DNA of 64,000 bases, taken from positions 1 through 64,000 of the forward strand of contig CACNDI010000001.1 in the NCBI GenBank assembly GCA_902619165.1. Reading direction: 5' to 3'. The translations under genes were made by a program, and so were the position numbers. Source of the stretch: an uncultured Alphaproteobacteria bacterium. Its GTDB lineage: Bacteria > Pseudomonadota > Alphaproteobacteria > Rhodobacterales > Rhodobacteraceae. The notes under the pieces were generated by a model. That model was not told the origin of the DNA, searched no databases, and was given only the letters and a program-made list of their open reading frames with translations. Below, in pieces: positions 6,356 through 22,005 of this stretch. How positions within the stretch are numbered: the stretch's first letter is position 1; each line of letters opens with the position of its first letter.

Positions 6356-6988
6356 TTGAGATTTTTTTTCAGAGAGTATACCGATATTGATTCAAGTATT
6401 ATCGTTAAAAACCATGTACATAAGACTGGATCCATCATAGAGCAGCAACGCGCAGTTTTTCTCGATAGGGACGGCGTAATTAATGTCAATCATGGATATG
6501 TACATGATCAAGAGAATTTTGAGTTTATTGATGGCATCTTCGAGGTGGCGCGTGCAGCTCATGCCAGTGGTTATAAACTCGTAGTTATTACCAATCAGTC
6601 CGGTATCGGTCGTGGCTATTATTCAGAGAAACAGTTTAATCAACTAACCACATGGATGTGTGGTAAATTTTCGAAAGCCGGTGCACCAATCGAAAAAGTT
6701 TATTTCTCGCCTTTTCATCCGACAGAAGGTTATGGGGCATATAGAAAGGACGATGATTCTCGCAAACCTCGCCCAGGAATGATCCTTCAGGCTCAAAGAG
6801 AAATGAATTTAAATTTAGAAAGTTCTATTTTAATTGGCGACAATTTAAGTGATATTCAAGCAGGCATAGCGGCAGGGGTGGGTCAAAATATCCTTTTTGT
6901 AAAGAAACAGCCTCTTAAGCTAAGCGGCCAATACTATAAAGCCATCACAAATCTTCGCGAAGTTCTACCTTTTATGGATAGCCGTTGA
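6356..6988 (+). CDS. gmhB: D-glycero-D-manno-heptose 1,7-bisphosphate 7-phosphatase
   Basis: This HAD phosphatase has AVFLDRDGVIN near residues 33-43 (nucleophile DxD), VITNQSGIGRG, KPRPGM and ILIGDNLSDIQAG, the four GmhB/HisB-N motifs in order. It removes the C7 phosphate from heptose bisphosphate in the cytoplasm and fits gmhA at 8127 and the HddC-like gene at 16203. The start is unclear: GmhB proteins normally begin close to the first motif, but here the only in-frame start is TTG at 6356, just before a run of eight T, giving an odd 32-residue leader. A TAG closes the frame upstream. The leader may be junk fused by a deletion, or translation may begin elsewhere. Confidence 0.88.
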   Translation: MRFFFREYTDIDSSIIVKNHVHKTGSIIEQQRAVFLDRDGVINVNHGYVHDQENFEFIDGIFEVARAAHASGYKLVVITNQSGIGRGYYSEKQFNQLTTWMCGKFSKAGAPIEKVYFSPFHPTEGYGAYRKDDDSRKPRPGMILQAQREMNLNLESSILIGDNLSDIQAGIAAGVGQNILFVKKQPLKLSGQYYKAITNLREVLPFMDSR

Positions 6989-7179
6989 TAGAATCTAGAT
7001 TAATCAATCGAATTTTGTGTCATCTAAATGCTCCACTGGGCAACAGTTGGAACTAAGAACTTCGCTCGGTGAAGATCGAGGTTGACTAAAGTTAACTAAC
7101 ATGTGGTGTCAACCTAATAACTATGCTAAATAAAATATTTTTTAAATTCACTGATCAATTTAATCTCTAAGGAACTCAA

Positions 7180-8130
7180 ATGAATGTATTTGTTACTGGT
7201 GGTTGCGGCTACAAGGGTACAGTACTTGTCCCTAAATTACTTCAACGTGGCTATACCGTAAATGTGCTCGACACTCAGTGGTTTGGTAATTTCCTTCCCA
7301 CTCACCCCAATCTAAGCATAGTTAAAGGTGATGTGCGTGATATTGACAATATAGATCTTCAACATGTTGATACAGTTATACACTTATCTTCTGTGGCTAA
7401 TGATCCCTGTGGTGATCTCGACCCTAAGCTCACTTGGGAAATTAGCGCTCTCGCTACTATGCAGTTGGCTGATAAAGCCGCGCGCCAAAGCGTTAAGCAA
7501 TTTATCTTTGCTTCTTCTGGCAGTGTTTATGGTATCAAGGAAGAAGATCAGGTCACTGAAAATCTTGAGCTTAAGCCAATCTCAGAATATAACAAAACTA
7601 AAATGGTTTCTGAGAGGGTCTTACTAAGTTATCAGAATGATATGATAGTACAAATCATACGTCCAGCAACAGTTTGCGGAATATCGCCACGTATGAGGCT
7701 AGATGTAGCAGTAAATCTATTAACCATGCAGGCGCTGGAAAACGGAAAAATTACCGTTTTTGGTGGAGATCAAGCTCGACCAAATATCCATATCGACGAT
7801 ATAACTGACGTTTATCTGCACTTCATGGACCACCCTGAGCACACCGGGGTTTTCAATGCTGGTTTTGAGAATATCACAATACTTGATATAGCTAAACTTA
7901 TAACAAAATATGTTCCAGTTGAAATTATCGTAACTGAATCTAATGATCCGCGTTCTTACCGCATTAATTCAGATAAATTGCTGGCTACAGGTTTTAATCC
8001 TAAAAAAACAGTTGAGCATGCGGTCAAGGAAATAATTAAGAGTTATGAAACCGGCGCTCTCAATGACGAGGAACATTTTTATAATCTCAAATGGATGGAA
8101 AAAAGTATTCTAAAAGGTAAACCATTATGA
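7180..8130 (+). CDS. NAD(P)-dependent sugar epimerase/dehydratase (SDR) of the heptose module
   Basis: This extended SDR of 316 residues has GGCGYKG at 7-13 in the nucleotide-binding loop, the serine motif FASSGSVYG, and Tyr137/Lys141 in YNKTK. A good ribosome binding site (AAGGA) precedes the ATG. It overlaps gmhA by four bases (ATGA), so the two are translationally coupled. Family knowledge: related SDRs in Campylobacter-type heptose clusters oxidise or epimerise GDP-heptose, and that role is plausible here. The substrate is unknown, and other nucleotide sugars cannot be excluded. The neighbourhood suggests it acts after heptose activation. Confidence 0.75.
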   Translation: MNVFVTGGCGYKGTVLVPKLLQRGYTVNVLDTQWFGNFLPTHPNLSIVKGDVRDIDNIDLQHVDTVIHLSSVANDPCGDLDPKLTWEISALATMQLADKAARQSVKQFIFASSGSVYGIKEEDQVTENLELKPISEYNKTKMVSERVLLSYQNDMIVQIIRPATVCGISPRMRLDVAVNLLTMQALENGKITVFGGDQARPNIHIDDITDVYLHFMDHPEHTGVFNAGFENITILDIAKLITKYVPVEIIVTESNDPRSYRINSDKLLATGFNPKKTVEHAVKEIIKSYETGALNDEEHFYNLKWMEKSILKGKPL

Positions 8131-8711
8131 ACACAACATTACCCAGCACAGATTTTTTTATTAATTATGGTAACCGCTTGCAGGCATCTCTGGCTGCCGC
8201 TGAGTGGTCTGAAGTTGCCCATCTTGGAGCTGATATTCACGAGTGTTGGCTTGAAAAAAGACAGGTTTTTATTTGTGGCAACGGCGGTAGTGCTGGAAAC
8301 GCGATTCATTTGGCAAACGACTTACTCTATGGTATTGCTAAGCGACCAGGAGGTGGGCTACGCGTAAATGCCCTTTCGTCCAATCCATCTGTTATAACAT
8401 GTTTGGCAAATGACATTGGCTATGATAGAGTTTTTGCTGAACAACTCTCGGTTATGGCAAATCCTAGCGACCTTTTGGTCGTTCTATCAGGAAGTGGCAA
8501 TTCTCCAAATATTATTGCAGCACTGGAACAGGCCAAGACCATGAACGTTAAAAGTTATGCTATTCTTGCCTTTTCAGGAGGTCGATCTAAGCAAATAGCT
8601 GATGTACCTATACACTTTCCAATTGATGACATGCAGGTGGCTGAAGACCTCCAGTTAATTATAGGGCACATGCTTATGCAGTGGTTATATGAAAATCGCC
8701 CTAAAGTCTGA
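8127..8711 (+). CDS. gmhA: Sedoheptulose-7-phosphate isomerase
   Basis: This 194-residue SIS-domain protein has FICGNGGSAGNA near 48-59 followed by HLANDL, and later VLSGSGNSPN, both typical of GmhA. It converts sedoheptulose-7-phosphate to D-glycero-D-manno-heptose-7-phosphate, the first committed step for ADP- or GDP-heptose. The start overlaps the previous stop (ATGA). With gmhB, the HddC-like gene and the kinase fusion, it forms a nearly complete activation route. The nearby split transketolase could supply its substrate. Confidence 0.92.
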   Translation: MNTTLPSTDFFINYGNRLQASLAAAEWSEVAHLGADIHECWLEKRQVFICGNGGSAGNAIHLANDLLYGIAKRPGGGLRVNALSSNPSVITCLANDIGYDRVFAEQLSVMANPSDLLVVLSGSGNSPNIIAALEQAKTMNVKSYAILAFSGGRSKQIADVPIHFPIDDMQVAEDLQLIIGHMLMQWLYENRPKV

Positions 8712-8740
8712 CTCTTTATTTGTTTTTAATAAGATAATTT

Positions 8741-9727
8741 ATGGACACAGTATTTGTAATAGGTAGCAATTCGTTCTCAGGCGCAAGCTTTATTGATTTT
8801 TCTTTAAATAAGGGTGCACGAGTTATCGGAATCAGTCGATCTCCTGAAGCGATACCTGAATTTTTACCCTACAAAAAGTATAATTATGATCACTTCACTT
8901 TTCACCAACTAGACTTGAACAAGGATCTATCTACTATTACTTCGATTATCAACGAAATAAAGCCCGCCTATATTGTAAATTTTGCTGCTCAAAGTATGGT
9001 AGGTGAAAGTTGGATAAAACCCAGTGACTGGTTCACTACAAATGTAGTTTCAACCGTCAAACTTCATGATGAGCTCCGCAAGTGTGACTTTCTTAAGCGG
9101 TATGTTCACATTTCTACCCCGGAGGTGTATGGGAGTTGCTCTGGCTTCGTAAAAGAAGATTTTCCGTTTAACCCAAGCACACCTTACGCAGTGTCACGTG
9201 CTGCAGCTGACATGAGTTTGAAGACTTTCAGTGAAACATATAGCTTTCCAGTAGTAACAACACGGGCGGCCAACGTGTATGGTCCGGGTCAACAGCTTTA
9301 TAGAATCATACCCCGGACAATACTATTTATTCTGTTGGGTCGAAAGTTACAGCTGCATGGTGGCGGTACCTCTACTAGGTCTTTCATTCACATAAGCGAC
9401 GTGTCTGATGCCACCTGGCGTATAATGGTAGAGGGTAAAAATGGAAATACTTACCATATCTCAACAAATGATGTGATATCAATTCGAGATTTGGTATCTC
9501 ATATTTGCGCCCGTTTGAATGTTCTATTTGAAGATCATGTAGAAATCGTTGGTGAGCGCCTTGGCAAGGACTCGGCCTATCACCTCGAAAGCTCTAAGGT
9601 TCGAGCCGAGCTAAAATGGCAGAACCAAATTAACTTTGACAAAGGCCTAGATGAATGCATTGCTTGGGTGACTGAAAACCTTGAAGCACTAAAGGACCAA
9701 CCTTACGACTACGTACACAAACCATGA
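8741..9727 (+). CDS. RmlB-like NDP-sugar 4,6-dehydratase
   Basis: This extended SDR of 328 residues has the loop GSNSFSG at 8-14, PEVYG near the active site, and TRAANVYGPGQQ further on, the last recalling dTDP-glucose and GDP-mannose 4,6-dehydratases. The catalytic tyrosine is Tyr149 in PYAVSRAAAD, where the usual lysine four residues later is Arg153. I believe the PYAVSRAA form recurs in a subfamily of these dehydratases, so it need not mean inactivity, but I cannot check. The product would be a 4-keto-6-deoxy sugar. The stop overlaps the transketolase start (ATGA), so it is cotranscribed with it. The substrate is not known. Confidence 0.75.
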   Translation: MDTVFVIGSNSFSGASFIDFSLNKGARVIGISRSPEAIPEFLPYKKYNYDHFTFHQLDLNKDLSTITSIINEIKPAYIVNFAAQSMVGESWIKPSDWFTTNVVSTVKLHDELRKCDFLKRYVHISTPEVYGSCSGFVKEDFPFNPSTPYAVSRAAADMSLKTFSETYSFPVVTTRAANVYGPGQQLYRIIPRTILFILLGRKLQLHGGGTSTRSFIHISDVSDATWRIMVEGKNGNTYHISTNDVISIRDLVSHICARLNVLFEDHVEIVGERLGKDSAYHLESSKVRAELKWQNQINFDKGLDECIAWVTENLEALKDQPYDYVHKP

Positions 9728-10554
9728 AACAAATATCAGATCCCGCTGAACTTAGAAGTGTTGCACGTAATTTGCGAGCTAAAACTATTGAAACTTCTAG
9801 TCGGACAGGTACACCTCACTTAGCGTCCTGTCTTTCGACTTTGGATTTACTAACCGCTCTATATTTTTCTGTTCTTCGCATTGATCCAAAAAATCCGAGA
9901 GATATCGGCCGCGATCGTTTTATTTTGAGCAAAGGGCATGGTGCAATGGCACTGTTTCATGTTTTAGCGCATCGGGGATTCTACTCTGAAGAGATGCTTA
10001 TAACCTATGGAGAAGATGGGGGTATTTTTGGAGAGCACCCGCCCGCGCCGGATCAGTTACCTGGGATTGAGGCAGCAACAGGTTCTCTCGGGCATGGGTT
10101 GCCAATGTCCCTCGGAATTGCATTAGCTGCTCGAATCCAAAAGCTTAGCTATAATGTCTATGCGTTACTTGGAGATGGTGAGTGCAATGAAGGGTCTATT
10201 TGGGAGTGTGCAATGCTTGCAGCTGCGCAGAGGACGAACAATTTATGTGCCATCGTTGATTTCAACAAGTGGCAAGCGACAGGTCGGAGCCAGGAAATTT
10301 TAGCTCTCGACTCACTAGTTGACAAATGGCGTGCTTTTGGTTGGGATACTCATGAGATTGATGGCCATGACATTAGTGCCATCTTATCAGCGCTTTCCAA
10401 TTTTCCCTCTGCTTGTAGTAAACCCACAGCTATTATTGCACATACTGTTAAAGGCAAAGGTGTTTCTTTTATGGAAGATGACAATAATTGGCACTACCGG
10501 ATACCTACAGAAGATGAAGTGCTGAAATCAAAAGAAGAACTGGGGGTTTTATAG
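9724..10554 (+). CDS. Transketolase, N-terminal (ThDP-binding) subunit
   Basis: This 276-residue protein matches the N-terminal third of transketolase: FILSKGHGAMALFH, TGSLGHGLP, and the thiamine-diphosphate and magnesium motif GDGECNEG at 150-157 with Asn181 in DFNKWQ. The partner subunit follows at once. Split transketolases of this kind move a two-carbon ketol unit between sugars. Here it may make sedoheptulose-7-phosphate for gmhA, or it may add a two-carbon branch to the keto sugar from the dehydratase upstream. Both are inferences. It overlaps its neighbours by four bases upstream and one base downstream. Confidence 0.9.
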   Translation: MKQISDPAELRSVARNLRAKTIETSSRTGTPHLASCLSTLDLLTALYFSVLRIDPKNPRDIGRDRFILSKGHGAMALFHVLAHRGFYSEEMLITYGEDGGIFGEHPPAPDQLPGIEAATGSLGHGLPMSLGIALAARIQKLSYNVYALLGDGECNEGSIWECAMLAAAQRTNNLCAIVDFNKWQATGRSQEILALDSLVDKWRAFGWDTHEIDGHDISAILSALSNFPSACSKPTAIIAHTVKGKGVSFMEDDNNWHYRIPTEDEVLKSKEELGVL

Positions 10555-11474
10555 TGAGGAATGCATTTGCAGACGAGATGACAAAGCTTGCAGTTTTGGA
10601 TCCACGCCTCATACTGCTTTCTGGAGACATTGGTAACAAACTTTTTGACAAATTTAAGGATGTTGCGCCTACACGCTTTTATAACTGTGGTGTTGCTGAG
10701 GGCAACATGATGAGTGTTGCCGCGGGTATGGCTCTGAATAATCTCCGACCCGTGGTTTACACTATTACGCCTTTCACGACGACGCGTTGTTTTGAACAAA
10801 TTCGTGTGGATGTCTGCTATCACAAGGCCCCTGTTATAATTGTGGGTACAGGATCTGGTTTGTCATATGCAAAGCTTGGACCCACTCATCACTCTCTTGA
10901 AGACATCGCAATATTGCGTACCTTACCAGGCATACGAGTTATAGCTCCTTGTGACTCAATAGAGCTTAGGCTAGCTATGCGCGCCGTACTTGAAGACAAT
11001 ATTCCTGCTTACATCCGTATAGGCAAGAAGGGCGAAGTTGATATTCACGCCTCTCCGCCAAAATTTAAAATTGGCGAAGCTATAATCGTCCGCCCTGGCA
11101 ATGATATGGCCTTACTCTGCACCGGAACCCTGATGTACGAAACACTTAAAGCAGCTGATATCTTAGAGAAAATTGGGATCTCTGCGGAAGTGGTAAGTTT
11201 TCACACGGTCAAACCCCTTGATAAAATTTATTTACAAAACGCTTCTACTCGCTTCAATTTATTGGTCACGGTAGAAGAGCACAGCCGCATCGGTGGTTTT
11301 GGCAGTGCCGTTTCTGAATGGCGCTCATCAACAAATTGCAATGTCCAACAGATTAGTTTGGGTACCGACGATGAGTTTATGCACGAGGTTGGCTCACAGG
11401 GTTATGCACGCAAAAAATACGGCTTAACCGCCGAAAACATTGCTGCCCGTGTGGCCGCATCTCTTAAGGCGTGA
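10554..11474 (+). CDS. Transketolase, C-terminal subunit
   Basis: This 306-residue protein carries the pyrimidine-binding and C-terminal transketolase domains. The conserved catalytic glutamate appears as Glu49 in CGVAEGNMM, and GPTHHSLEDIA and EEHSRIGGFG are further family motifs. It begins with GTG overlapping the TAG of the N-terminal subunit by one base, which implies coupled translation and one complex. A full-length housekeeping transketolase is about 660 residues, so this pair looks like a dedicated copy in the sugar cluster. A DXS-like activity is less likely because the halves are separate and the neighbours are sugar genes. Confidence 0.9.
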   Translation: MRNAFADEMTKLAVLDPRLILLSGDIGNKLFDKFKDVAPTRFYNCGVAEGNMMSVAAGMALNNLRPVVYTITPFTTTRCFEQIRVDVCYHKAPVIIVGTGSGLSYAKLGPTHHSLEDIAILRTLPGIRVIAPCDSIELRLAMRAVLEDNIPAYIRIGKKGEVDIHASPPKFKIGEAIIVRPGNDMALLCTGTLMYETLKAADILEKIGISAEVVSFHTVKPLDKIYLQNASTRFNLLVTVEEHSRIGGFGSAVSEWRSSTNCNVQQISLGTDDEFMHEVGSQGYARKKYGLTAENIAARVAASLKA

Positions 11475-11481
11475 GTGGCTC

Positions 11482-12090
11482 ATGCGGATTGGCATTGATT
11501 TTGACAACACAATCGTTAGCTATGATGCACTTTTTCACAAGGTAGCCGTTGAGCAGGCGATCGTCCCAGTTGATTTGCCGAAATCGAAAATGGCAGTGCG
11601 TGATTATCTGCGCAAAAATGATAATGAGCCCATCTGGACTGAATTGCAAGGATTTGTGTACGGGACAAAGATGGAGGATGCTAAAGCCTATCCATTTGTT
11701 ATCGAATTCATGAAATTTGCCCGTGAAGAAGGCATTTCTATGGCCATCGTGAGCCACAAAACCAAGCACCCATTTGTAGGCCCAAAATATAATCTTCATG
11801 AAGCAGCCAGCAGCTGGGTGGCCAACAAATTGATTGATGGAGAAATAAACCTTATTGAACCTGAAAATGTATTCTTTGAATTAACAAAGGAAGAAAAAAT
11901 TGCTCGTATAGCACACATTGGATGTGATTATTTCATTGACGATCTTCCAGAAATTTTACTGATGCCCGGGTTTCCTAAAAACCTCAATCGTATCCTGTTT
12001 GATCCTGAAGGAAACCACAATACTGATAAACTATATACGAAGCTAGTATCTTGGCAGGAAATAAAAACTTTTTTTGAGACAACCAAGTGA
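11482..12090 (+). CDS. HAD-like hydrolase
   Basis: The ATG at 11482 starts a 202-residue protein beginning MRIGIDFDNTI, with the HAD nucleophile pair Asp6 and Asp8. Motif II is probably AIVSHKT and the acidic motif YFIDDLPEIL. An upstream in-frame start at 11440 exists but lies inside the transketolase gene and adds no conserved residues, so I prefer 11482. The stop overlaps the GTG of the kinase-like gene, suggesting a coupled phosphatase/kinase pair. The substrate is unknown; a phosphorylated sugar or nucleotide-sugar side group is a reasonable guess. Confidence 0.8.
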   Translation: MRIGIDFDNTIVSYDALFHKVAVEQAIVPVDLPKSKMAVRDYLRKNDNEPIWTELQGFVYGTKMEDAKAYPFVIEFMKFAREEGISMAIVSHKTKHPFVGPKYNLHEAASSWVANKLIDGEINLIEPENVFFELTKEEKIARIAHIGCDYFIDDLPEILLMPGFPKNLNRILFDPEGNHNTDKLYTKLVSWQEIKTFFETTK

Positions 12091-13091
12091 GCACACTGTT
12101 AAGTTTATCTATCTCAGACTTTCTTTTGGATGCGGGAGTCAATACTGTTGAGATGGATGTTGCTCCTGTAAATGGTGGCGGTAATAATAAAGTTTTTGCA
12201 GTCCACACCAAAAGCGGAAAATATCTAGCCAAGGTTTATTACAGTAATCCATCTGACAAAAGAAACCGTCTCAAGGCCGAATACTCCTTTCTTGAATATG
12301 CCAGAAAAATTGGTATTGATTGTGTACCAAAACCAATTTTCTCCAGCCCTGAAAAAAATATGGGCTTGTACGAATTTGTTCAGGGCAGGAAATTAGCGTC
12401 TTCCGAATTGATGCCGCAACACATCAAGCAAGCAGCTAATTTTGTGCATGCGCTAAATAAGAGATATGAAAAAGACGTCGCCTTACCTATAGCTTCAGAA
12501 GCTTGTTTTAGTATTGAGCAGCATTTTCTACTTACAGATAATCGTATAAAAAAATTGCTCAGCCTACCCGTAGTATCCGAAATTGACCACCAAGCACTTC
12601 TGTTTGTAGGCAAGCTAGATTACGTCTTGAAAAATTTAAAAGACGATATTATTGCTAGGTGTAGCTCAATTTCGAAACAGCTTGATGAAGCCGACCGGTG
12701 TATTTCACCGTCCGATTTCGGTTTTCATAACGCATTACTTATGGATAATGGCAAAATTAGTTTCATTGATTTTGAGTATGCTGGCTGGGACGACCCTGCT
12801 AAGATGATCGGTGATTTTTTTTCACAGCCAGAAATCCCTGTATCGCTTAAACATTTTGATAGATTTATATCTGAGGCGTTAGGTTACTCTAAAAATAGCG
12901 TTGAATTGGCTCAGCGTGCTCGATTACTCTTGCCGTTGTTCCAAATAAAATGGTGTTGTATAATTCTAAATGATTTTTTACCAGATGCTGCAAAGCGGCG
13001 ACATTTTGCTAACCCAACTCTTGAACCACTGCAACGAAAGCAGCAGCAGCTTGCAAGGGCGCAACAGTTTTTCCATACAAGGATTACATAA
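12087..13091 (+). CDS. Aminoglycoside/choline-kinase-like phosphotransferase
   Basis: This protein of 334 residues starts at GTG and overlaps the HAD gene by four bases. It has the APH/choline kinase fold signs: NNKVFAVHTKSGKYLAKVY near the N terminus (ATP-binding lysine), SDFGFHN near 208-214 in place of the catalytic loop HGDxxxxN, and IDFEYAGWDDP around 226-236 for metal binding. The usual HxD is changed to SDF here but the aspartate is kept. It probably phosphorylates a small alcohol or sugar. Its operon place suggests a role in decorating the glycan or activating its precursor. The substrate cannot be read from sequence. Confidence 0.75.
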   Translation: MSTLLSLSISDFLLDAGVNTVEMDVAPVNGGGNNKVFAVHTKSGKYLAKVYYSNPSDKRNRLKAEYSFLEYARKIGIDCVPKPIFSSPEKNMGLYEFVQGRKLASSELMPQHIKQAANFVHALNKRYEKDVALPIASEACFSIEQHFLLTDNRIKKLLSLPVVSEIDHQALLFVGKLDYVLKNLKDDIIARCSSISKQLDEADRCISPSDFGFHNALLMDNGKISFIDFEYAGWDDPAKMIGDFFSQPEIPVSLKHFDRFISEALGYSKNSVELAQRARLLLPLFQIKWCCIILNDFLPDAAKRRHFANPTLEPLQRKQQQLARAQQFFHTRIT

Positions 13092-13093
13092 AA

Positions 13094-13765
13094 ATGGCAC
13101 GTTTAGATTTTCTTTCCTCTGTGCATAAAAGTACCTCACGTGATTATCTGGCGCGAGTTAACGACTCAGCGTACCCAAAAGCGGTTGCTGCGGAGCTGGC
13201 GAAAAGATGGGGGTTTGACTATTGGGACGGTGACCGTAGCATCTGTTATGGCGGGTATTTCTACATGCCGGGACGCTGGGCTCCAGTCGCCAAGGCGATG
13301 ATAGATCACTACCATATCAAGCCAGGAGATAAAATCTTGGATGTTGGTTGTGGTAAAGGGTTTCTGCTTTATGAAATCACTCTTTTAGTTCCTGGCGTTA
13401 AAGTTTATGGATTGGATATTTCTGATTATGCGATCGAACATTCCAAGGAAGAACTTAAAGGTAGTATTCAGCTTGGCAATGCAAACTCTTTGCCGTTTGA
13501 AGACAAATATTTCGACCTTGTCTATTCACTCAATACTCTTCATAATTTCCATAATTATGATTTGGATAAGGCTTTGCGTGAAATAGAACGTGTAGGCAAA
13601 AAAAATAAATATATTTGTGTAGAATCTTATCGTAATGAAATTGAAAAGGCTAATCTCCTCTATTGGCAAGTAACCTGCGAAGCTTTCTGTACTCCCGAGG
13701 AATGGGAGTGGTGGTTTGAGCAAACTGGCTACAGAGGTGATCATTCCTTTATTTACTTTGAGTGA
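13094..13765 (+). CDS. SAM-dependent methyltransferase
   Basis: This 223-residue class I methyltransferase has motif I ILDVGCGKGF near 80-89, an acidic residue after the next strand in YGLDIS, and SLNTLHNF as motif IV. It starts two bases after the kinase stop and so belongs to the same operon. The 75 residues before the SAM domain include aromatic stretches (GGYFYMPGRW) that may bind the substrate. It would methylate a sugar or sugar-linked group. It is followed by a decayed alcohol dehydrogenase. The enzyme class is firm, the acceptor unknown. Confidence 0.85.
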   Translation: MARLDFLSSVHKSTSRDYLARVNDSAYPKAVAAELAKRWGFDYWDGDRSICYGGYFYMPGRWAPVAKAMIDHYHIKPGDKILDVGCGKGFLLYEITLLVPGVKVYGLDISDYAIEHSKEELKGSIQLGNANSLPFEDKYFDLVYSLNTLHNFHNYDLDKALREIERVGKKNKYICVESYRNEIEKANLLYWQVTCEAFCTPEEWEWWFEQTGYRGDHSFIYFE

Positions 13766-13791
13766 GCAAAGCATTTAAGTGCATAATAAAA

Positions 13792-14112
13792 TGAAGGTAG
13801 CTATTTTAGTTGAGCAGTCACTACTGGATTTGGTGTGGTGGAAATAGTGCTATATCGAGGACTGGAGAGACAGTTGTGTTATTTGGCGTAGGTGGCATTA
13901 GCCTTAATATTGCGTACGCTAAATCGCTTGTTAGCACTCATCCTGTTAGCGCGGTTGATTTGCAAGACATCAATCTGGAACTCGCCAAACAGATTGTGCA
14001 ACTAACGTCATAAACAATAGCAAAGTCGATGCAAAACATGCAATCCTTGAAATCTCTAGCACTGCTGGAATCGACACTTCCATCGATAATACCAGTCAAA
14101 CTGATCGGTTTT
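13792..14112 (+). pseudogene. Remnant of a zinc-type alcohol dehydrogenase
   Basis: Three frames together spell parts of a medium-chain dehydrogenase. MKVAILVEQ (from 13792) matches the usual N terminus. TTGFGVVE (from 13820, next frame) is the region before the Rossmann fold. GETVVLFGVGGISLNIA (near 13864) is the NAD loop. After another frame change near 13993, VINNSKVDAKHAILEIS and GIDTSIDNT continue the domain. The catalytic zinc-binding part of about 150 residues is missing, so there has been a large deletion plus at least two frameshifts. Recognisable similarity ends near 14112. From there to 14459 I see only AT-rich sequence that may hold further debris. The ancestor probably belonged to the same sugar module. 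Confidence 0.8.
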
Positions 14113-14459
14113 AACAGCATTGATGCAATACCGCAAAACGGATATTCCTTGCTATCACTAGCTCTTTCGCAATGGTTGCATTCAGTTAAAAAATCTTATA
14201 AGTTTCAAAAAAGGTTTTTAGGGACGTTGAGTTTTCTTCTCTCAAAAAAGCTGTGTAACCATTATCAATGATTTGTCGGGGGATTGGTTTAAAGGATCTT
14301 ATTGATCGATATAGGACTTAACATATCTAGATATCTAACTATTTTGTATATAAGTTAAAGCAACCCTATAGAAAAAAATGCAAAGTCGGTGTAAAGGTAA
14401 TTCAAAGCCAAAAGTGTCATGAAAAGATCTTTATTGAAACAAATTGAGGAGTGTAAGTA

Positions 14460-14777
14460 GTGGACCATTTAGTAGATACTTTTTTACCGACGACTGCGTG
14501 GATACAGCTAGAAGAGTCTCAAAGAATAAAAATTATACAGGATTTCTTGGTAAGCCAAGAGTTAGAGTTTCAAATGCAAGTTACTTCTGCCCCGGATAAC
14601 GGACAGGTTGTACTTACAACTACTGATACTCTACCTCCAGGCCGAAGAGGTTTGTTCTTACTGAGATTAGAAAATACGATTAAGGAGCGTATTGATATCG
14701 GCATTACATTATGGCTGGAGCCAGTTGGTGATAAAAGCAAGCTTAGACAATTGCGGGGAGTAACGATAAACCATTAG
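14460..14777 (+). CDS. Small protein of unknown function
   Basis: This 105-residue protein starts with GTG at 14460, nine bases after a good ribosome binding site (GAGGAG), and ends 31 bases before the radical SAM gene. It has no signal peptide or membrane segment. The text alternates polar and hydrophobic residues in the second half (QVVLTTTDTL, GLFLLRLE, IGITLWLEPVG), which suggests a small beta-rich fold. I do not recognise the family. Its position suggests it may act with the radical SAM enzyme, for example as a partner or substrate-binding subunit, but this is only a guess from spacing. Confidence 0.65.
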   Translation: MDHLVDTFLPTTAWIQLEESQRIKIIQDFLVSQELEFQMQVTSAPDNGQVVLTTTDTLPPGRRGLFLLRLENTIKERIDIGITLWLEPVGDKSKLRQLRGVTINH

Positions 14778-14808: not shown

Positions 14809-15951
14809 ATGACAAATAATTCAATACAGACTAATGAGGGAGCACTCATTCTCGATTCCCACAAATTAGAATATCATTATGATAGAGTTGAAGCTTGGGA
14901 TGCTGGAGAAAAAATAGCGCCCGTCTCTGTTGACATGGCTTTAACCCGCGCTTGTGGCGCAATGTGTTCCTTTTGCTATGCGATGGTCCAGGAACCACAG
15001 GAACGAGCGACAATAAAAGAAAAAGAAGCTTTGCTTCTAGCTGATGACTTTGCCGAAATTGGAGTTAAAAGCGTGTCATTAATTTCGGACGGTGAGAGCA
15101 CACTTTCAAAGGCTTACACACCATTTATTCAGCACGCCCACGGTTTGGGATTGGATATCGGAAATGCAACAAATGGTTGGGAATGGGATCCCGACAAAAT
15201 TGAACAAGTTCTGCCTCACATGACATGGGTAAGGTTCACTGTAGCGGCAGGTTCGCCAGAAGAATATTCTCGAATTATGTTCAAAGGCCCAGAATTTACG
15301 AGCGTGTATGATAGGGCAATGCGAAATATCAAATATGCTGTGGATTTAAAAAGAAAAAATAATCTCAATGTTACGCTCGGCACCCAAATGGTTTTAATGC
15401 CAGAATTTGAAAAAGAGATTATCCCATTTGCAAAGTTGGCGTTGGATCTTGGTGTTGACTACGGAGTTATTAAGCACTGTTCAGATGATGAAGCTGGCTC
15501 GTTAGGTGTAGATTATTCGAAATATGAAAAAATGTATCCGCTGTTAAAACAAGCTGAGGCAATGAGTACCAAGTCAACAAAAATAATTGTTAAATGGGAA
15601 AAAATCAAAGATAAAGGTGTACCATCTTATAGTAGATTTTATGGCCCTCAGTTTCTGTTGCAAGTAAGTGGTAGTGGTTTAGTGGCTCCAGCAGGAATGT
15701 TTTTTAATGCGCGGTTCTCAAAGCTCCATATGGGGAACTTTTGTGATGAAAGGTTTATTGATATCTTCAACTCTGATCGGTATCAAGAAATTATGAATTA
15801 CATAGCGTCACCCAATTTTGATGCAAAGACTATGATGGGCAACATGCCAATTTCGCATTATGCGAGTGTGGCATTAGATAATCATAAACGCGGCATTAAA
15901 AAACTTAAGCGTGCTAATGGCCCTGAACCACTCCATGTAAACTTTCTCTAA
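14809..15951 (+). CDS. Radical SAM enzyme
   Basis: This 380-residue protein has the iron-sulfur motif Cys49-X3-Cys53-X2-Cys56 (CGAMCSFC), followed by a TIM-barrel-like pattern: VSLISDGESTLS holds the SAM-binding GE-type turn. The C-terminal part (GSGLVAPAGMFF, then HMGNFCDERFIDIFNSDRY) recalls the SPASM/Twitch region by text but has few cysteines, so an auxiliary cluster is doubtful. AGGAAC gives a ribosome binding site. In a sugar cluster such an enzyme could do radical dehydration, epimerisation or dehydrogenation of a nucleotide sugar, as DesII does in desosamine synthesis. The actual reaction is unknown. Confidence 0.85.
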   Translation: MTNNSIQTNEGALILDSHKLEYHYDRVEAWDAGEKIAPVSVDMALTRACGAMCSFCYAMVQEPQERATIKEKEALLLADDFAEIGVKSVSLISDGESTLSKAYTPFIQHAHGLGLDIGNATNGWEWDPDKIEQVLPHMTWVRFTVAAGSPEEYSRIMFKGPEFTSVYDRAMRNIKYAVDLKRKNNLNVTLGTQMVLMPEFEKEIIPFAKLALDLGVDYGVIKHCSDDEAGSLGVDYSKYEKMYPLLKQAEAMSTKSTKIIVKWEKIKDKGVPSYSRFYGPQFLLQVSGSGLVAPAGMFFNARFSKLHMGNFCDERFIDIFNSDRYQEIMNYIASPNFDAKTMMGNMPISHYASVALDNHKRGIKKLKRANGPEPLHVNFL

Positions 15952-16202: not shown

Positions 16203-16919
16203 ATGATAGCTCTTCTATTAGCAGCGGGCCTTGGAGAGAGGCTCCGTCCAATTACAAACAAAATTCCTAAATGTTTAGTCCCAATTGGGGGTAGACCTTT
16301 ATTAGATTTTTGGATTGAAAGTATGATTAGCATTAACATATCAAAAATAATAATAAATACACATTATCATGCGGAAGCTGTGCATGAATTTATCGAGCAA
16401 CATCAATACAAGGATAAAATTGAAATTTTGTTCGAACCACAACTTGTTGGAACAGGCGGGACGTTGCGTGATGCCGCTGACAGGATCAAAGATGAGGATG
16501 TGCTAGTTGCACATGCAGATAATTTTTGCCGTGCGCCAATGGATGATTTTGTAAATTGTTTCGAAACACGGCGCAACGAAATCGAAATAACTGTAATGAC
16601 GTTCAGAACTGACACGCCATCATCTTGTGGTATTGTTGAAATAGACGAAAGGGGTACTGTTCGGAAATTTCATGAAAAGGTGTCAAATCCAAAAAGCAAT
16701 CTTGCCAGTGGGGCAGTTTTTATTCTAAGCAATGATACCGTTCAGTTTGTTAGAAAACAGAAACCAGTATACATAGATTTTAGTAAAGACGTATTACCGT
16801 ATTACATGGGCAGGATAAATACATGGGAAAATAAAGTTTATCATCGTGATATAGGAACTCCAGAGAGTTATTTACAATGCCTGAAAGATTGGGAAAATCT
16901 GGAAAAACAAGTAATCTGA
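16203..16919 (+). CDS. hddC: HddC-like sugar-1-phosphate nucleotidyltransferase
   Basis: This 238-residue nucleotidyltransferase has the loop LLLAAGLGERLRP at 4-16 with Lys-Pro-type PKCLVPIGGRPLL after it, VAHADNF for metal binding, and the ending YHRDIGTPESY found in HddC and related guanylyltransferases. Family knowledge: HddC joins GTP to D-glycero-alpha-D-manno-heptose-1-phosphate. With gmhA and gmhB in the same cluster, GDP-heptose is the best guess for its product. Mannose- or other sugar-1-phosphate specificity cannot be excluded. It stands between gaps of 251 and 465 bases, so it may be transcribed separately. Confidence 0.78.
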   Translation: MIALLLAAGLGERLRPITNKIPKCLVPIGGRPLLDFWIESMISINISKIIINTHYHAEAVHEFIEQHQYKDKIEILFEPQLVGTGGTLRDAADRIKDEDVLVAHADNFCRAPMDDFVNCFETRRNEIEITVMTFRTDTPSSCGIVEIDERGTVRKFHEKVSNPKSNLASGAVFILSNDTVQFVRKQKPVYIDFSKDVLPYYMGRINTWENKVYHRDIGTPESYLQCLKDWENLEKQVI

Positions 16920-17384: not shown

Positions 17385-18788
17385 TTGATAACTGGTTTAA
17401 TATATGGAAAATTTGATGTTCTACATGCGGGACATATCCGGCTTTTTCATTTTGCAAAATCCCGATGTGATAGGCTGACTGTTGCGGTTATAGATAATAG
17501 TGAGTTTGATGCATTGAGAGAACTTGATCTGAGAATTAAAGATCTTTCAGTAATTAATTTGATCGATAAAATTTTATCTTACACTGACTTAGAGGATCTA
17601 TTGAAAACTCAAAAACCCGACTTGATTTTTAAAGGTAATGAGTTTAGCCGTAAATATAATGAGGAAAAAAATATTATTGATTTGATAGGTGCAAAGCTTT
17701 CTTTTATGAGTGCTGACGAAAGATATGATGTGCGTTTTAAGGAAACTGAATTTAAAAATAAAAACAAAAGTTATTTACAAAATTTTCGAGAAAAATATAG
17801 CCTCGACGAAAGTCATATTAAAGAAAGCATTAGTCTTTTTAAAAGCCTGAATGGAATTGTTGCTGGAGAGTTAATCTATGATCAGTACATAAACTGCATT
17901 CCAAGGGGTATGTCACAAGAAGATAAAAACATTGTATATGAAAAAGATGGCTTCAAGGAATTTATTGGAGGGGCTGGAATTGTCGCGGCTCATTGTAAAG
18001 GTCTGGGCTCTAAAGCTGAATTGGTTAGTTGCGTAGGTAACGACCAAATGGGACAGAAATCGTCTAAAAGTTTAGAACGCCTTGGTGTAAAAAGTAAATT
18101 TTGGCTGGATGACACCCGTAACACTATTGTAAAAACTCGCTACATTTGGGATAATAAACCAATATTTCGTGTCAGTGTATTAGACAAGGTGAGATTGCCG
18201 GACAATTTGCAAGAAGAATATTTACAGTATATAGACCAAAAATTACAGACCGTCGAGTTCTTAATTATTTCAGACTTTAATTATGGTTTATTGTCTCCTG
18301 AAATCTGTAATCATATTATGAAAAGCGCAAAAAATAATAATGTCCCAGTTACCGTCGACTGCCAAATTTCATCACAAACAGGTGATCTTCAAAAATATCG
18401 TGGAGCAAAACTAGTAACTCCTACTGAAATAGAAGCGAGAACCGCGCTGAAAGATTTTGATAGTGGGGTTGCATATTTAGGAGAAAAGCTCAGAGATAAA
18501 TTAGAAGCTGATCACCTGATATTGAAGCTTGGTGCACAGGGTGCTCTGATATTCACAGAACTTAATGGTATTGTACAGGTTGAAAACTTGCCTGCCTTGA
18601 ATGTTAACCGAGTAGTAGATCCTAGTGGTGCAGGTGACTCAATGTTGGCTGTGGCTACATTAACCCTTTGTGCCTCAGAAAATATATTTTTGGCTTCCTA
18701 CCTCGGAAGCTTAGCGGCTGGAATACAGGTAACCCAACGCGGGAATATCCCCCTCAATCAAGATTTCTGGCAAAGTAGGAAAAATTGA
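17385..18788 (+). CDS. Nucleotidyltransferase-PfkB kinase fusion in reverse HldE order
   Basis: This 467-residue protein starts with TTG about ten bases after AAAGGGG. The N-terminal domain (about 1-140) is a cytidylyltransferase-like fold with GKFDVLHAGHIRL at 8-20, where HxGH is His14-Ala-Gly-His17. From about 155 to the end is a PfkB sugar kinase, with EFIGGAGIVAAH near 200 and DPSGAGDS at 412-419, Asp418 being the catalytic base. Family knowledge: HldE has the same two activities but with the kinase first. The swapped order is plain in the text. It could phosphorylate C1 of a heptose-7-phosphate and then transfer a nucleotide, or serve another sugar. The exact substrate and nucleotide are unknown. 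Confidence 0.82.
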   Translation: MITGLIYGKFDVLHAGHIRLFHFAKSRCDRLTVAVIDNSEFDALRELDLRIKDLSVINLIDKILSYTDLEDLLKTQKPDLIFKGNEFSRKYNEEKNIIDLIGAKLSFMSADERYDVRFKETEFKNKNKSYLQNFREKYSLDESHIKESISLFKSLNGIVAGELIYDQYINCIPRGMSQEDKNIVYEKDGFKEFIGGAGIVAAHCKGLGSKAELVSCVGNDQMGQKSSKSLERLGVKSKFWLDDTRNTIVKTRYIWDNKPIFRVSVLDKVRLPDNLQEEYLQYIDQKLQTVEFLIISDFNYGLLSPEICNHIMKSAKNNNVPVTVDCQISSQTGDLQKYRGAKLVTPTEIEARTALKDFDSGVAYLGEKLRDKLEADHLILKLGAQGALIFTELNGIVQVENLPALNVNRVVDPSGAGDSMLAVATLTLCASENIFLASYLGSLAAGIQVTQRGNIPLNQDFWQSRKN

Positions 18789-18914: not shown

Positions 18915-20057
18915 ATGAATAAAATCTTAAAAAAAATAAATGATAAAGGTTTATTGTGGTTTATAAAAAGGATTAGGCAAGAACTGAGGAAGCCTTCGAA
19001 AAAACCTATTGAGAAAATAATGGATTTTTTGCTAAGGGTAAAAAGAAGAATGTCGAGCCGTGCTGCTATAGCTATTGAAGATGACTTACTTTATTGCATG
19101 TATGATCTTAACATCTACGACTTAACGTTTATAATGGCTATACGTTTAGTCGAATTTGAAATGGAAGCTAAAAATAATAATAAAAAAGGTTTCATTGTTG
19201 TAATAGTACCATCTTCACTCGATCCCGATCTTGGGTGGAAAGAGTACGACTCAAAAATTGATAAATATAGTAAGCATTGGCGATTTCAAAACATTGTACT
19301 CCCACTAACCTTTCTTTCGCCCTCTTGTAGAGGCGTCTATGTCTTGCCACGCAGATCAGATGCCATAGCCTTCGCAAAGAAGCACGATGTTTATCCCGAA
19401 ATGTATGATGGCGTTAATTTAAGAAAAACTGACGCTTCAGAATTGCTCCACAGAAAATGGGACAGACCTGGTCTATTTGAGGGACTCAAAGCTAATAAAC
19501 AGGGACTCAGGTATGTTAAAGACTGGATACATGCAAAAGGAATTCAGTCCAAGATAATTACTATTACTATCCGTGATAGCCCATTTGATCCAGCTCGAAA
19601 CAGTGATATCAAAGCATGGTCAAGCTTTGCGCGCTACTTGCTTGAAGCGGGGTATAGCCCTGTAATTATTCCAGATACCGACAATGCATTTTGCAAAAAT
19701 TTTGGTTTCGAAGGCATAAATTTTTTCTCAGAATGTGCGTGGAACATAGGTTTGCGTATGGCGCTATACGAAACTGCTTATTTAAACTTTTTTGCCCCAA
19801 ATGGTCCAGTGACTTTGGCCAAGGTTAACCCAAGATGCAGTTATATTGCCATGAATAGTACCCCGAAAGGCGCTATAATAAATATGGATGAAGAAGCATA
19901 TAGAAAATATGGTCACTCGATAGGCGAAAATTTTAAGTTTGCAAACCAAAGACAGCGTCTGTGTTTTGAACCTGATACTTATGAAAATATCAAGAATGAA
20001 TTTGACCGCTTTGTTAAGGACAACCCACCTGTCAACATTACTGTGGAGACCGAGTGA
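18915..20057 (+). CDS. Conserved-looking protein of unknown function
   Basis: This 380-residue protein has a basic N terminus (about 50 residues rich in Lys and Arg, including KKPIEKIMDFLLRVKRR), which may bind membrane or nucleic acid. The rest looks like a two-domain globular protein: VVIVPSSLDPDLGW near 95-108, then IITITIRDSPFDPARNSD near 213-230, and YSPVIIPDTD near 250. The last parts recall GT-B glycosyltransferase-like folds in polysaccharide clusters, but I see no firm catalytic motif. It lies 126 bases after the kinase fusion. A glycosyltransferase or glycan-modifying enzyme is possible. I do not recognise the family. Confidence 0.6.
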   Translation: MNKILKKINDKGLLWFIKRIRQELRKPSKKPIEKIMDFLLRVKRRMSSRAAIAIEDDLLYCMYDLNIYDLTFIMAIRLVEFEMEAKNNNKKGFIVVIVPSSLDPDLGWKEYDSKIDKYSKHWRFQNIVLPLTFLSPSCRGVYVLPRRSDAIAFAKKHDVYPEMYDGVNLRKTDASELLHRKWDRPGLFEGLKANKQGLRYVKDWIHAKGIQSKIITITIRDSPFDPARNSDIKAWSSFARYLLEAGYSPVIIPDTDNAFCKNFGFEGINFFSECAWNIGLRMALYETAYLNFFAPNGPVTLAKVNPRCSYIAMNSTPKGAIINMDEEAYRKYGHSIGENFKFANQRQRLCFEPDTYENIKNEFDRFVKDNPPVNITVETE

Positions 20058-20171
20058 ATGCATACACCCAAAATATGTCCTAAAATAACGCAACAACACT
20101 ATTCGAAAGAAATCTTTGGTCTCCTAGCTTGGCGATCTATATGTCTCGGTGTATTAGGGTTTACTAATTAA

Positions 20172-20903
20172 TTGGATCTTCACGTGAATACAGAGAAAAA
20201 AACCAGAAAATCTACAATCTTAGTTATCGGAGCTAACTCGACTATAGGTATTGCTATGGTTCGAGAATTTATTAACCACGGTGATGTTGTTATTGCTACA
20301 TATTGTAAAAATAATCCTAAATTTGTGCACCAGAGCGTAAAATGGGTTCATTTGGATTTAACTGATGAGAAGAGTATTGAAACTTTCACAAAAGGGCTTA
20401 CCAAGAGCAAGTCCCGAATAGATTCATCTATTTTCGTGTCGGGATACCTTCCTGGGAAATCTCTAGAGAAATATTCACATGAGGAAATGAATACAGTTGT
20501 GGATGTCAATTTTTTAGGCCAAGCAAAATGTTTGCAAGCGCTTTTGCCACTTTTAAATCGCCCTTCTCAAATTTTGATGATTTCATCTGTATCAGGAGAG
20601 CGTGGAAGTTATGACCCGATATATGCTGCATCAAAAGGTGCTGTAATAGCTTTCGTAAAGTCACTTGCAACTTGGCTTCCTCCTCAAGTGAGATGTATGT
20701 CTATTGCACCTGGCCTCGTAGAGGGAAGTGGAATGTATAATGCGATGTCCACGGAAGTTCGGAAAGTACATTTGGATAGGACACCGCTTAAAAAACTTAT
20801 TACAGTCGAAGAATTGGCTAAAATGATTTTAGATTTAACCAAAGATTACTGGGGTCATGCCAACGGCGCTTGTATACGCATCAATGGTGGTGCATATGTC
20901 TAG
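20172..20903 (+). CDS. Short-chain dehydrogenase/reductase (FabG-like)
   Basis: This classical SDR has the NAD(P) loop GANSTIG at 20-26, a catalytic serine in MISSVSGERG, and Tyr151/Lys155 in YAASKGA, with length 243. The start is TTG at 20172 or GTG at 20184; neither has a strong ribosome binding site, and the first 15 residues are not conserved in SDRs. It overlaps the FAD oxidoreductase by eight bases, so the two are coupled and may act one after the other on the same sugar or side chain. The substrate is unknown. Confidence 0.82.
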   Translation: MDLHVNTEKKTRKSTILVIGANSTIGIAMVREFINHGDVVIATYCKNNPKFVHQSVKWVHLDLTDEKSIETFTKGLTKSKSRIDSSIFVSGYLPGKSLEKYSHEEMNTVVDVNFLGQAKCLQALLPLLNRPSQILMISSVSGERGSYDPIYAASKGAVIAFVKSLATWLPPQVRCMSIAPGLVEGSGMYNAMSTEVRKVHLDRTPLKKLITVEELAKMILDLTKDYWGHANGACIRINGGAYV

Positions 20904-22005
20904 AGTGGTGAATGTGGCAGTTATTGGATGTGGAATTTTTGGAGCTGAAATAGCCCTAAAAGCTAGATCGTGTGGGTTATCGGTCACTGTTTATGAAGCA
21001 AACACCGACATTCTTATGGGTGCCTCTAGAAATAACCAGAACCGCCTTCACCTTGGCTTTCACTATCCACGTGACCTAGAAACAGGTAGGCAGTCGATGC
21101 AGGGTTTTGAAGTTTTCAAGAGAAAATACGCCAAATGTATTGAAGCTGGATTTCAAAATGCATATTTTATCGCCAATGAAGGGTCTTTAACGTCTGCAGA
21201 AACGTTTTTTGAGTTTTGCGATCGGTTAGGTGCTCCTTATAAGAAAATCTGTGCAAATCAATTCCCAGTAAATGTTCGGGGCGCAGACAAAGGTATTCTG
21301 TGCGAAGAAGTAGCCTACGATTGTGAAATCTTGCGTAACTTAGTTCGGATGCGTCTACTCCACGAGGAGATTGATGTAGCAATGGGTGAAAGCGTCCTTA
21401 GTATCAAAAAGGTTGGAGAGCGATACCAAATAAATTCCCAGAGTCGAGAACCATTATTTGCAGATGTGATTATTAACTGTTCATACGCGAACATTAATCG
21501 TTTGACAGAACAGCTTGGTTATGAAGTGCCAGAAAGGCTATTCGAATACACGGTTGTACCAATAATTAGGCTTGATATACCAAAAGTTGGTATTACAATC
21601 ATGGACGGTCCGTTTATGACAATTCTTCCTCACGGGAAGACACAAAATTTTCTTTTGTACAACGTGGAAAGTACTGTAGTTGCAAAGAGCATTGCGACTC
21701 AGTTAGATCAGAATTGGCTCTCTACTGGTTCGTCTCCCTTCGCAAACATGGATAGGATTCAATACTTCAGGGAAATGATTGAGGTGTGTAAAGAGTATGT
21801 TCCCGTGCTTGAAAAGGCTAAGTTAGCGGGCTTCCTGGAAGGACCGAGAATGGTTTTAGCGCGAAAAGAAGATACAGACGCGCGCCCTTCCATGATCAAC
21901 GTTTACGGCGATAGTTACTTTACAGTCTTCTCCGGTAAAATTGATCATTGCGTGTGGGTGGCTGATGATATGTACCTCCGGCTCAAATCGCATTTTAACC
22001 TATAG
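20896..22005 (+). CDS. FAD-dependent oxidoreductase (DAO family)
   Basis: I place the start at the ATG at 20896, inside the last codons of the SDR, giving 369 residues. The earlier in-frame start at 20857 adds only SDR-overlapping sequence. The dinucleotide motif is VAVIGCGIFGAEIA (GCGIFG at 11-16), followed by the acidic end of strand 2 in VYEAN. The motif GASRNNQNRLHLGFHYPR recalls DAO-family oxidases and dehydrogenases, in which a histidine near this spot can hold FAD. It probably oxidises an amine or hydroxyl on a sugar or linked group. The family assignment is good, the substrate unknown. Confidence 0.8.
   Translation: MSRVVNVAVIGCGIFGAEIALKARSCGLSVTVYEANTDILMGASRNNQNRLHLGFHYPRDLETGRQSMQGFEVFKRKYAKCIEAGFQNAYFIANEGSLTSAETFFEFCDRLGAPYKKICANQFPVNVRGADKGILCEEVAYDCEILRNLVRMRLLHEEIDVAMGESVLSIKKVGERYQINSQSREPLFADVIINCSYANINRLTEQLGYEVPERLFEYTVVPIIRLDIPKVGITIMDGPFMTILPHGKTQNFLLYNVESTVVAKSIATQLDQNWLSTGSSPFANMDRIQYFREMIEVCKEYVPVLEKAKLAGFLEGPRMVLARKEDTDARPSMINVYGDSYFTVFSGKIDHCVWVADDMYLRLKSHFNL

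Follow-up and report, generated by a model that had tools for sequence, protein, structure and literature searches.

A divergent copy of a probable nucleotide-sugar cassette, related to the gdh cluster of Bradyrhizobium, in an uncultured alphaproteobacterium

We analysed 64,000 nucleotides of DNA (the window; positions 1 to 64,000 of contig CACNDI010000001.1, assembly GCA_902619165.1) from an uncultured bacterium of the Rhodobacteraceae, whose genome comprises 2.28 Mb in 51 contigs and is 88% complete. At 6356-22005 the window carries a module of sugar genes that run on one strand and that, from SDRa to MT1 (7180-13765), overlap or almost abut in an operon-like manner. The genes that the initial annotation had named as a heptose-type module are real: each corresponds to a + strand open reading frame located where the annotation put it or close by, and their domains were confirmed with Pfam and NCBIfam or, for the HAD gene, by predicted structure. 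Its proposal that a heptose-type sugar is made and activated is supported as well. The ADH remnant and c18, listed below, were not part of that annotation. The features are the following.

6356-6988, +: gmhB-like heptose-1,7-bisphosphate 7-phosphatase, cassette accessory (TIGR00213, 192.4 bits; cut-off 149.6)
7180-8130, +: SDRa, NAD-epimerase-type NAD-dependent SDR, proposed GDP-heptose C4-dehydrogenase (Pfam; PDB relative 6vo6/6vo8)
8127-8711, +: GmhA-like SIS isomerase, sedoheptulose/ketose 7-phosphate isomerase (SIS_2, 8e-20; gmhA model 108 bits, below the cut-off of 209)
8741-9727, +: RmlB-like SDR (RmlBl), homologue of Bradyrhizobium gdh (210 bits, below the cut-off of 365)
9724-10554, +: TKN, transketolase N half with thiamine diphosphate (ThDP) domain (Pfam; catalytic His and ThDP residues kept)
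10554-11474, +: TKC, C half of the transketolase, altered at the acceptor site (Pfam; residue comparison)
11482-12090, +: HAD phosphatase (DxDNT motif; AlphaFold model)
12087-13091, +: APH-family small-molecule kinase (PF01636, 1e-8)
13094-13765, +: MT1, S-adenosylmethionine (SAM)-dependent methyltransferase, proposed C-methyltransferase (Pfam)
~13790-14270, +: remnant of a decayed zinc alcohol dehydrogenase (ADH), matched in three frames by cassette ADH queries
14460-14777, +: c18, short homologue of a radical-SAM partner protein (c18 profile, 28.7 bits)
14809-15951, +: radical SAM enzyme, mainly of a sister (E1-type) cassette (PF04055, 9.5e-11)
16203-16919, +: HddC-like sugar-1-phosphate nucleotidyltransferase (PF00483, 7.8e-38; HddC model 90.7 bits, cut-off 300)
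17385-18788, +: CytT-PfkB fusion (fus), nucleotidyltransferase plus heptose-7-phosphate-kinase-like domain (Pfam/NCBIfam)
18915-20057, +: putative GT-B glycosyltransferase (unk380), GT9/heptosyltransferase-like fold (predicted structure)
20172-20903, +: SDRb, FabG-type SDR, lineage-specific (Pfam)
20857-22005, +: DAO-type FAD oxidoreductase, lineage-specific (PF01266, 1.6e-14)

The conserved core consists of approximately 7180-13765 together with the HddC-like and fusion genes; gmhB, the radical SAM gene, the SDRb/DAO pair and MT2 lie outside it.

Sequence comparison argues strongly for homology between this module and a gene cluster of Bradyrhizobium. In Bradyrhizobium aeschynomenes 83002 (L101) eleven genes stand in one row on one strand (2072-12330), in the order fus-HddC-SDRa-gmhA-RmlBl-TKN-TKC-ADH-HAD-APH-MT1. 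The likely neighbours, read from the sequence, are an opposite-strand gene upstream and an acyltransferase-like gene approximately 660 bases downstream; as this DNA is rich in G+C and has short open frames, the operon ends were judged rather than taken from an annotation. Ten of the eleven families are intact in the window, the eleventh, ADH, being present only as a remnant, and the blocks SDRa-gmhA-RmlBl-TKN-TKC and HAD-APH-MT1 have identical order in both. Identities between the window and L101 proteins are 73% for SDRa, 63% for TKN, 60% for GmhA, 58% for TKC, 57% for MT1, 56% for RmlBl, 47% for HAD and 42% for APH. Unlike in Bradyrhizobium, where ADH sits between TKC and HAD, the decayed ADH of the window follows MT1; the HddC-like and fusion genes (43% and 35% identity) are placed downstream, HddC-like first; and the window adds gmhB, the radical SAM gene with its partner, SDRb, DAO and the GT-B gene.

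The Bradyrhizobium cluster can be connected with a known sugar through published primers. Disruption of gdh removes the bradyrhizose O-antigen, and gdh sits in an eleven-gene cluster that Busset et al. (2016) provisionally assigned to bradyrhizose, the synthesis genes of which they called unknown (available text of PMC4743980). Each published gdh primer has a single match in L101, at 6235-6257 (one mismatch) and 6592-6615 (two mismatches), with none expected in shuffled sequence. Both sites fall inside the RmlB-like gene (6100-7107), and the predicted product of 381 bases compares with a published 300-400 (PMC4743980). The same primer spacing was found in three further Bradyrhizobium loci, with 1-4 mismatches per primer. 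One published rfaL primer has a single exact match in the L101 genome, on a contig of the same size (570,436 bases) and approximately 43 kb from gdh, against the "40-kb" gdh-rfaL figure of the paper (PMC4743980). The window operon therefore contains a homologue of gdh, RmlBl, with the same STPE motif as the L101 gene. The earlier statement that no described heptose pathway has this set of genes is not supported in that form, since the gdh cluster appears homologous and NCBI has already modelled TIGR04323/TIGR04324 from related clusters. We found no account of the bradyrhizose pathway later than 2016 in the open-access papers searched, and a search of that literature at the level of titles and abstract openings returned no paper on this gene set.

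The core recurs widely. When the HAD protein was searched against 385 genomes of the class to which the window belongs, relatives were found in 23 (its own included), and 20 neighbourhoods were fetched. Both transketolase halves were present in 18 of these loci, APH in 17, SDRa and the CytT-PfkB fusion in 16 each, and MT1 in 12. A profile (A1) of 20 HAD sequences then gave at least 320 relatives in a collection of 84,980 species, the best 80 of which were kept as named loci; all co-occurrence figures are conditional on this selection by HAD, and the loci are not phylogenetically independent. The record titles of the HAD relatives name proteobacteria, Verrucomicrobia, planctomycetes, cyanobacteria, Elusimicrobia, Chlamydiae and others. 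Thalassospira alkalitolerans and Herbaspirillum rhizosphaerae are cultured species that carry the cassette intact. Within the 80 loci we counted TKC in 74, APH in 73, TKN in 71, ADH in 68, MT1 in 67, RmlBl in 63, SDRa in 61, the fusion in 49, GmhA in 35 and the HddC-like gene in 21; the census recovered HAD itself in only 73 of these HAD-selected loci, so that its counts are lower bounds. All eleven families were present in 14 of the 80.

For 42 loci the stretch was at least 20,500 bases long and so included full 10-kb flanks. Here TKN, TKC, APH and MT1 were each found in 41, SDRa in 40, RmlBl in 39, ADH in 37, fus in 33, gmhA in 25 and HddC in 16, and 37 of the 42 had TKN, TKC, APH, MT1, SDRa and RmlBl together (the exceptions being L076, L080, L126, L133 and L139). 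The cassette core is a real module common to several phyla rather than a local arrangement, and it has likely been transferred between lineages. A tblastn search of phages with TKC gave 50 records, every one below 60% identity. The census also registered two TKN-TKC pairs within 20 kb in each of the planctomycete-labelled loci L095 and L112.

The genes outside the core behave differently. Near the cassette, gmhB was seen in 5 of the 80 loci, unk380 in 3, the radical SAM gene in 1, and SDRb, DAO and MT2 in none; DAO relatives at E≤1e-20 occurred in 7 of the 385 class genomes, its own included. Thus the view of the module as one pathway set stands for the core genes, which in other genomes recur together rather than separately; it does not extend to the radical SAM gene, the SDR/FAD pair and MT2, which in the loci examined do not travel with the core and hence say little about the conserved pathway.

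The most distinctive enzyme of the core is the split transketolase, which was compared using E. coli TktA (L147) as the ruler for residue numbers. For the C halves, 94 cassette sequences covered the relevant columns, the window included (sequences with a gap were left out of the counts for that residue), and the comparison set was 12 housekeeping transketolases from the same nine genomes, a thirteenth (L148), extracted in the wrong frame, being left out. In the cassette C halves His461 is replaced by Gly and Arg520 by Lys in 94 of 94, Asp469 by Leu in 89 of 94 and Ser385 by Arg, Lys or Gly in 89 of 94; the housekeeping enzymes have His461 and Arg520 in 12 of 12, and Asp469 and Ser385 in 11 of 12. 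The window TKC carries Lys at 385, Gly at 461, Leu at 469 and Lys at 520, and so lacks these sugar-phosphate acceptor residues of transketolase (EC 2.2.1.1). The ThDP catalytic residues are kept: Glu411 and His473 in 94 of 94 C halves, His26 and His66 in 91 of 91 and His261 in 93 of 93 N halves, with all five present in the window.

In transketolase Ser385 contacts the substrate phosphate, and the S385Y/D469T/R520Q variant of the E. coli enzyme was evolved stepwise from phosphorylated to non-phosphorylated and aromatic aldehyde acceptors (available text of PMC5073344); His461 is normally linked to phosphate binding (PMC3657141, in its available part). A full-length transketolase is also encoded in all nine genomes checked, that of the window included, so sedoheptulose 7-phosphate need not derive from the cassette enzyme. 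As far as its available text goes, a 2020 study describes split transketolases as restricted to archaea and some thermophilic bacteria (PMC7661550); the cassette shows that they are not so confined.

A PDB search with SDRa gave 6vo6/6vo8 as best match (E 6.7e-41; next 2.8e-26), which we take to be Campylobacter Cj1427, the GDP-heptose C4-dehydrogenase of C. jejuni. The Cj1427 reaction, oxidation of GDP-heptose at C4, is described in the available text of PMC10680097. The RmlB-like family has the motif [ST][ST]PE, with Pro in 64 and Glu in 65 of 65 sequences scoring at least 250 bits. The equivalent motif of RmlB is TDE, and with Pro in place of the RmlB Asp a simple 4,6-dehydration is not assured. 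The HAD gene had no Pfam match at E≤0.001; DxDNT was found in 94 of 94 sequences, along with an SH[KR] motif, and the AlphaFold model (pLDDT 94.8), whose top folds are deoxyribonucleotidase-type HADs, confidently predicts a phosphatase fold. In APH the D, H and N of DFGFHN and the D and E of FIDFE are invariant in 91 sequences. PDB sequence searches with APH and with HAD gave nothing at E≤0.01.

The name HddC-like is weak on family score alone because three other nucleotidyltransferase models outscore the HddC model; the gene does occur together with the fusion gene in cassettes. The kinase half of the fusion has heptose 7-phosphate kinase 4e84 as its best PDB match (2.1e-15) and scores 174 bits against a heptose-7-phosphate kinase model with a cut-off of 345; its transferase half reaches 39 of 181.5 bits, and the domain order is the reverse of that in HldE. 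The unk380 protein had no Pfam match up to E 1. Its predicted structure, a model of moderate confidence (pLDDT 79.5), has GT9 3tov and WaaF 1psw as top folds (TM by query 0.44-0.48), a weak but fitting indication that it may transfer a heptose-derived sugar. The gene lies just after the cassette in two loci, on its strand in L069 and on the opposite one in L096.

Several described systems were compared with the module. A plain HldE-type ADP-heptose synthase was rejected, as both fusion domains fall under the NCBIfam cut-offs and their order is reversed. The HddA-type GDP-heptose pathway (GmhA-HddA-GmhB-HddC) was likewise rejected: no GHMP-type kinase was found among 29 proteins scanned (3-30448), which have PfkB and APH kinases instead. 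The C. jejuni GDP-heptose pathways share GmhA, GmhB, an HddC-like enzyme and a C4-dehydrogenase like SDRa, but in the available text of PMC10680097 no counterpart is described of the cassette transketolase, APH, HAD or MT1. In NCBIfam, two proteins that occur in related clusters are modelled under the name "sporadic carbohydrate cluster" (SpoChoClust; TIGR04323/TIGR04324). Those clusters share the fus, SIS, SDRa, HAD, APH, TKN, TKC and MT1 families with the window, whereas the two markers were absent from 22 window proteins searched with NCBIfam and from the six-frame segments of the whole window searched with phmmer; the window was therefore not classed as such a cluster.

The window variant has lost ADH. 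Its remnant was matched by 70 of 70 cassette ADH queries, in pieces in three + frames, the best piece (13843-13995) having 59% identity over 51 amino acids, and L069 and L096 (Thalassospira) have an intact ADH at the corresponding position behind MT1. With ADH lost, the window probably makes a variant, and its sugar may be related to, yet different from, that of the intact cassettes. More generally, ADH accompanies 51 of 58 RmlBl-type cassettes, and none of 82 loci has both ADH and SpoChoClust genes (Fisher p 2.6e-9, ignoring relatedness), a mutual exclusion that points to alternative endings of the pathway. A large protein of approximately 900 residues, forming one cluster, occurs near SpoChoClust-type or related cassettes (L043-L047, L049, L050, L053, L054 and L057). 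SBBP repeats (LipL53-family match) are present in the L044 representative, the start of which by eye we took to be flagellin/FlaEY-like; a link between SpoChoClust-type cassettes and flagellin glycosylation is only a guess.

The radical SAM enzyme and its upstream partner belong mainly to a sister cassette. Relatives of the enzyme were found at 46-50% identity in L011-L014 and at 48.5% in L059, a plasmid of Azospirillum oryzae (NZ_CP054615.1). L059, which suggests a sugar pathway using ThDP and radical SAM enzymes and has the order PfkB fusion-SIS-SDR-E1alpha-E1beta-DegT-DegT-c18-radical SAM, shares with the window the fus-type, SIS and SDRa genes and the radical SAM gene with its partner, but E1-alpha/beta ThDP subunits and two DegT genes replace the transketolase/HAD/APH part; no E1-alpha/beta or DegT pair was found in the census of the window. 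The window c18 matches the C-terminal positions 293-390 of the c18 profile, and c18 stands directly upstream of the radical SAM gene in all six loci with a close relative of that enzyme (L011-L014, L059 and L107), three of which (L011, L012 and L059) are E1-type sister cassettes. It is not present in L015 and L060, which have more distant radical SAM enzymes. No NCBIfam match was found for the L059 member of c18 and no Pfam match for the L014 and L059 members; a partnership with the radical SAM enzyme is possible. In the Omnitrophota locus L107, c18 and the radical SAM gene accompany TKN, TKC, HAD, APH, ADH and MT1, so the combination of these two with a transketolase cassette recurs. The radical SAM enzyme was rejected as the heart of the module, its close relatives standing in differing contexts and in only 1 of the 80 HAD-selected loci and none of the 20 class loci.

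We consider it probable that the module belongs, in diverged form, to a conserved nucleotide-sugar cassette of common origin with the gdh cluster, which would oxidise a GDP-heptose, lengthen it by two carbons, cyclise it and add a C-methyl group. The bases of this reading, namely homology, co-occurrence, placement of the gdh primers, changes in the transketolase site, the presence of another, ordinary transketolase in the genome and decay of ADH, were all observed. They lend support to the idea, raised in the initial annotation, of a higher-carbon sugar built by two-carbon transfer. In the available text of PMC9912281 bradyrhizose is a ten-carbon bicyclic sugar, called inositol-fused in a reference title; ring closure takes place between its aldehyde C1 and OH-4, OH-5 or OH-9. 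A six-membered hemiacetal through both O5 and O9 requires C4 to be bonded to C3, C5 and C9; combined with an inositol ring this gives a carbocycle C4-C9 with an arm C1-C3 and C10 outside, and hence a heptose chain C1-C7 bridged by C8-C9 between C7 and C4, plus one carbon.

A pathway of plausible chemistry would build this skeleton as follows. Sedoheptulose 7-phosphate from the housekeeping transketolase would be isomerised by the SIS protein, the kinase half of the fusion would phosphorylate C1, GmhB or HAD would remove the C7 phosphate, and the HddC-like enzyme would activate the sugar to GDP-heptose. SDRa could then convert C4 to a ketone and ADH could open C7 as an aldehyde, whereupon the split transketolase would add a two-carbon ketol unit (C8-C9) at the C7 aldehyde, or directly on the C4 ketone. 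An intramolecular aldol reaction between C9 and C4 (or C8 and C7) would close the carbocycle and MT1 would supply the tenth carbon next to a ketone, for a carbon count of 7+2+1=10. The RmlB-like and SDR enzymes may be finishing enzymes, and APH and HAD may deal with a transient phosphate.

A number of observations weigh against this reading. APH and HAD have no secure role in the scheme, and the two nucleotidyltransferases are unexplained. The skeleton is our deduction, with C10 as a methyl group. It was drawn from the wording of a review (PMC9912281, in part), and we infer each reaction, the order of steps and a bradyrhizose-like product of the window from sequence. The ADH of the window is decayed, and its genome, at 88% completeness, has no close ADH elsewhere, only distant ones. 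In the altered acceptor site Arg358 is retained in 92 of 93 cassette C halves, the window included, and 16 of 90 N halves carry Gln at residue 100, which is His in TktA. The class loci include two without the transketolase pair (L056 with HAD alone; L051, where the contig ends soon after HAD), and the complete pair was not in view in 9 of the 80 loci (L085, L086, L092, L103, L109, L121, L126, L127 and L138), 8 of them stretches shorter than 20.5 kb. RmlBl was found in only 2 and ADH in only 3 of the 20 class loci, 10 having SpoChoClust genes instead, so that the cassette spans several products. With regard to gdh, the available text of Busset et al. does not exclude polar effects of the insertions (PMC4743980); the B. 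aeschynomenes strain matched here is not among the six strains given there, so the identification depends on primer placement; and the rfaL primer matched only one of four Bradyrhizobium genomes tried.

One alternative is that the cassette makes a modified heptose of ordinary length, such as a methylated GDP-heptose derived from a 4-keto intermediate, the split transketolase serving only as the source of sedoheptulose 7-phosphate, or of a stereoisomer, for the SIS protein. The SIS, heptose-7-phosphate-kinase-like, gmhB, HddC-like and Cj1427-like genes do form a heptose set, of the kind from which C. jejuni builds many GDP-heptoses (PMC10680097, available text). We nevertheless regard this as unlikely: the full-length enzyme is already present in all nine genomes checked, most acceptor phosphate ligands are lost from the cassette enzyme, and the homologous Bradyrhizobium cluster is tied to a ten-carbon sugar (available text of PMC4743980).

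The transketolase might instead place its two-carbon unit on a 4-keto sugar, yielding a higher sugar that is open and 4-C-branched, with no carbocycle in many hosts, the ADH-less window among them. Yersiniose- and eurekanate-type pathways are precedents for 4-C-branched sugars, SDRa could provide the C4 ketone, and in sister cassettes E1-type ThDP subunits and DegT aminotransferases take the place of the transketolase; the exclusion between ADH and SpoChoClust genes also implies that end products differ. Such an outcome seems equally improbable, given that ADH accompanies most RmlBl-type cassettes and that the one relative whose product is known has been linked to a bicyclic sugar. Least probable is that the link to gdh is circumstantial, the O-antigen having been lost through polarity or the block of another sugar and the cassette making a different component: a primer or linker sugar is conceivable, but the published description of the O-antigen is of a homopolysaccharide made solely of bradyrhizose (PMC9912281, available text), which leaves an eleven-gene sugar operon with no other obvious product.

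Beyond the carbocyclic reading preferred here for the module, we propose more tentatively that the re-tooled split transketolase, with a C4-dehydrogenase, ADH and a C-methyltransferase, could make inositol-fused decoses from GDP-heptose (7+2+1, aldol) in many phyla, including cyanobacteria, Verrucomicrobia and planctomycetes, and that swappable finishing and ThDP modules could yield a whole family of higher-carbon sugars of the cell surface, carbocyclic or branched.

Judging by its gene content, the wider region resembles a surface-glycan locus. Upstream of the module lie a mannose-6-phosphate isomerase C-terminal-type gene, a nucleotidyltransferase, a UDP-glucose/GDP-mannose dehydrogenase-type gene, an epimerase and an ABC exporter; downstream lie an epimerase/dehydratase, glycosyltransferases, rfbF, rfbG (CDP-glucose 4,6-dehydratase) and an RmlC-like gene. 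A second nucleotide-sugar set at 28054-31671 comprises a glucose-1-phosphate cytidylyltransferase (476 bits), CDP-glucose 4,6-dehydratase (484 bits), an RmlC-like epimerase and a 407-residue protein that by inspection resembles a C-methyltransferase, and reads as a set for a CDP-6-deoxy, possibly C-methyl, hexose. Next to the glycan locus, inspection also suggested a gene cluster for homogentisate/aromatic catabolism and an ABC transporter of the branched-chain-amino-acid/urea type (40489-46146, 51585-56588). Scanning the window for Rfam families and tRNAs gave no hits.

The placement of the gdh primers puts a name to the probable bradyrhizose gene set, and the carbon count of the proposed pathway makes it open to a direct test by isotope labelling. 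The comparison further reveals a lineage of transketolases in which the acceptor site has changed, and it indicates that many environmental bacteria may make related higher-carbon sugars.

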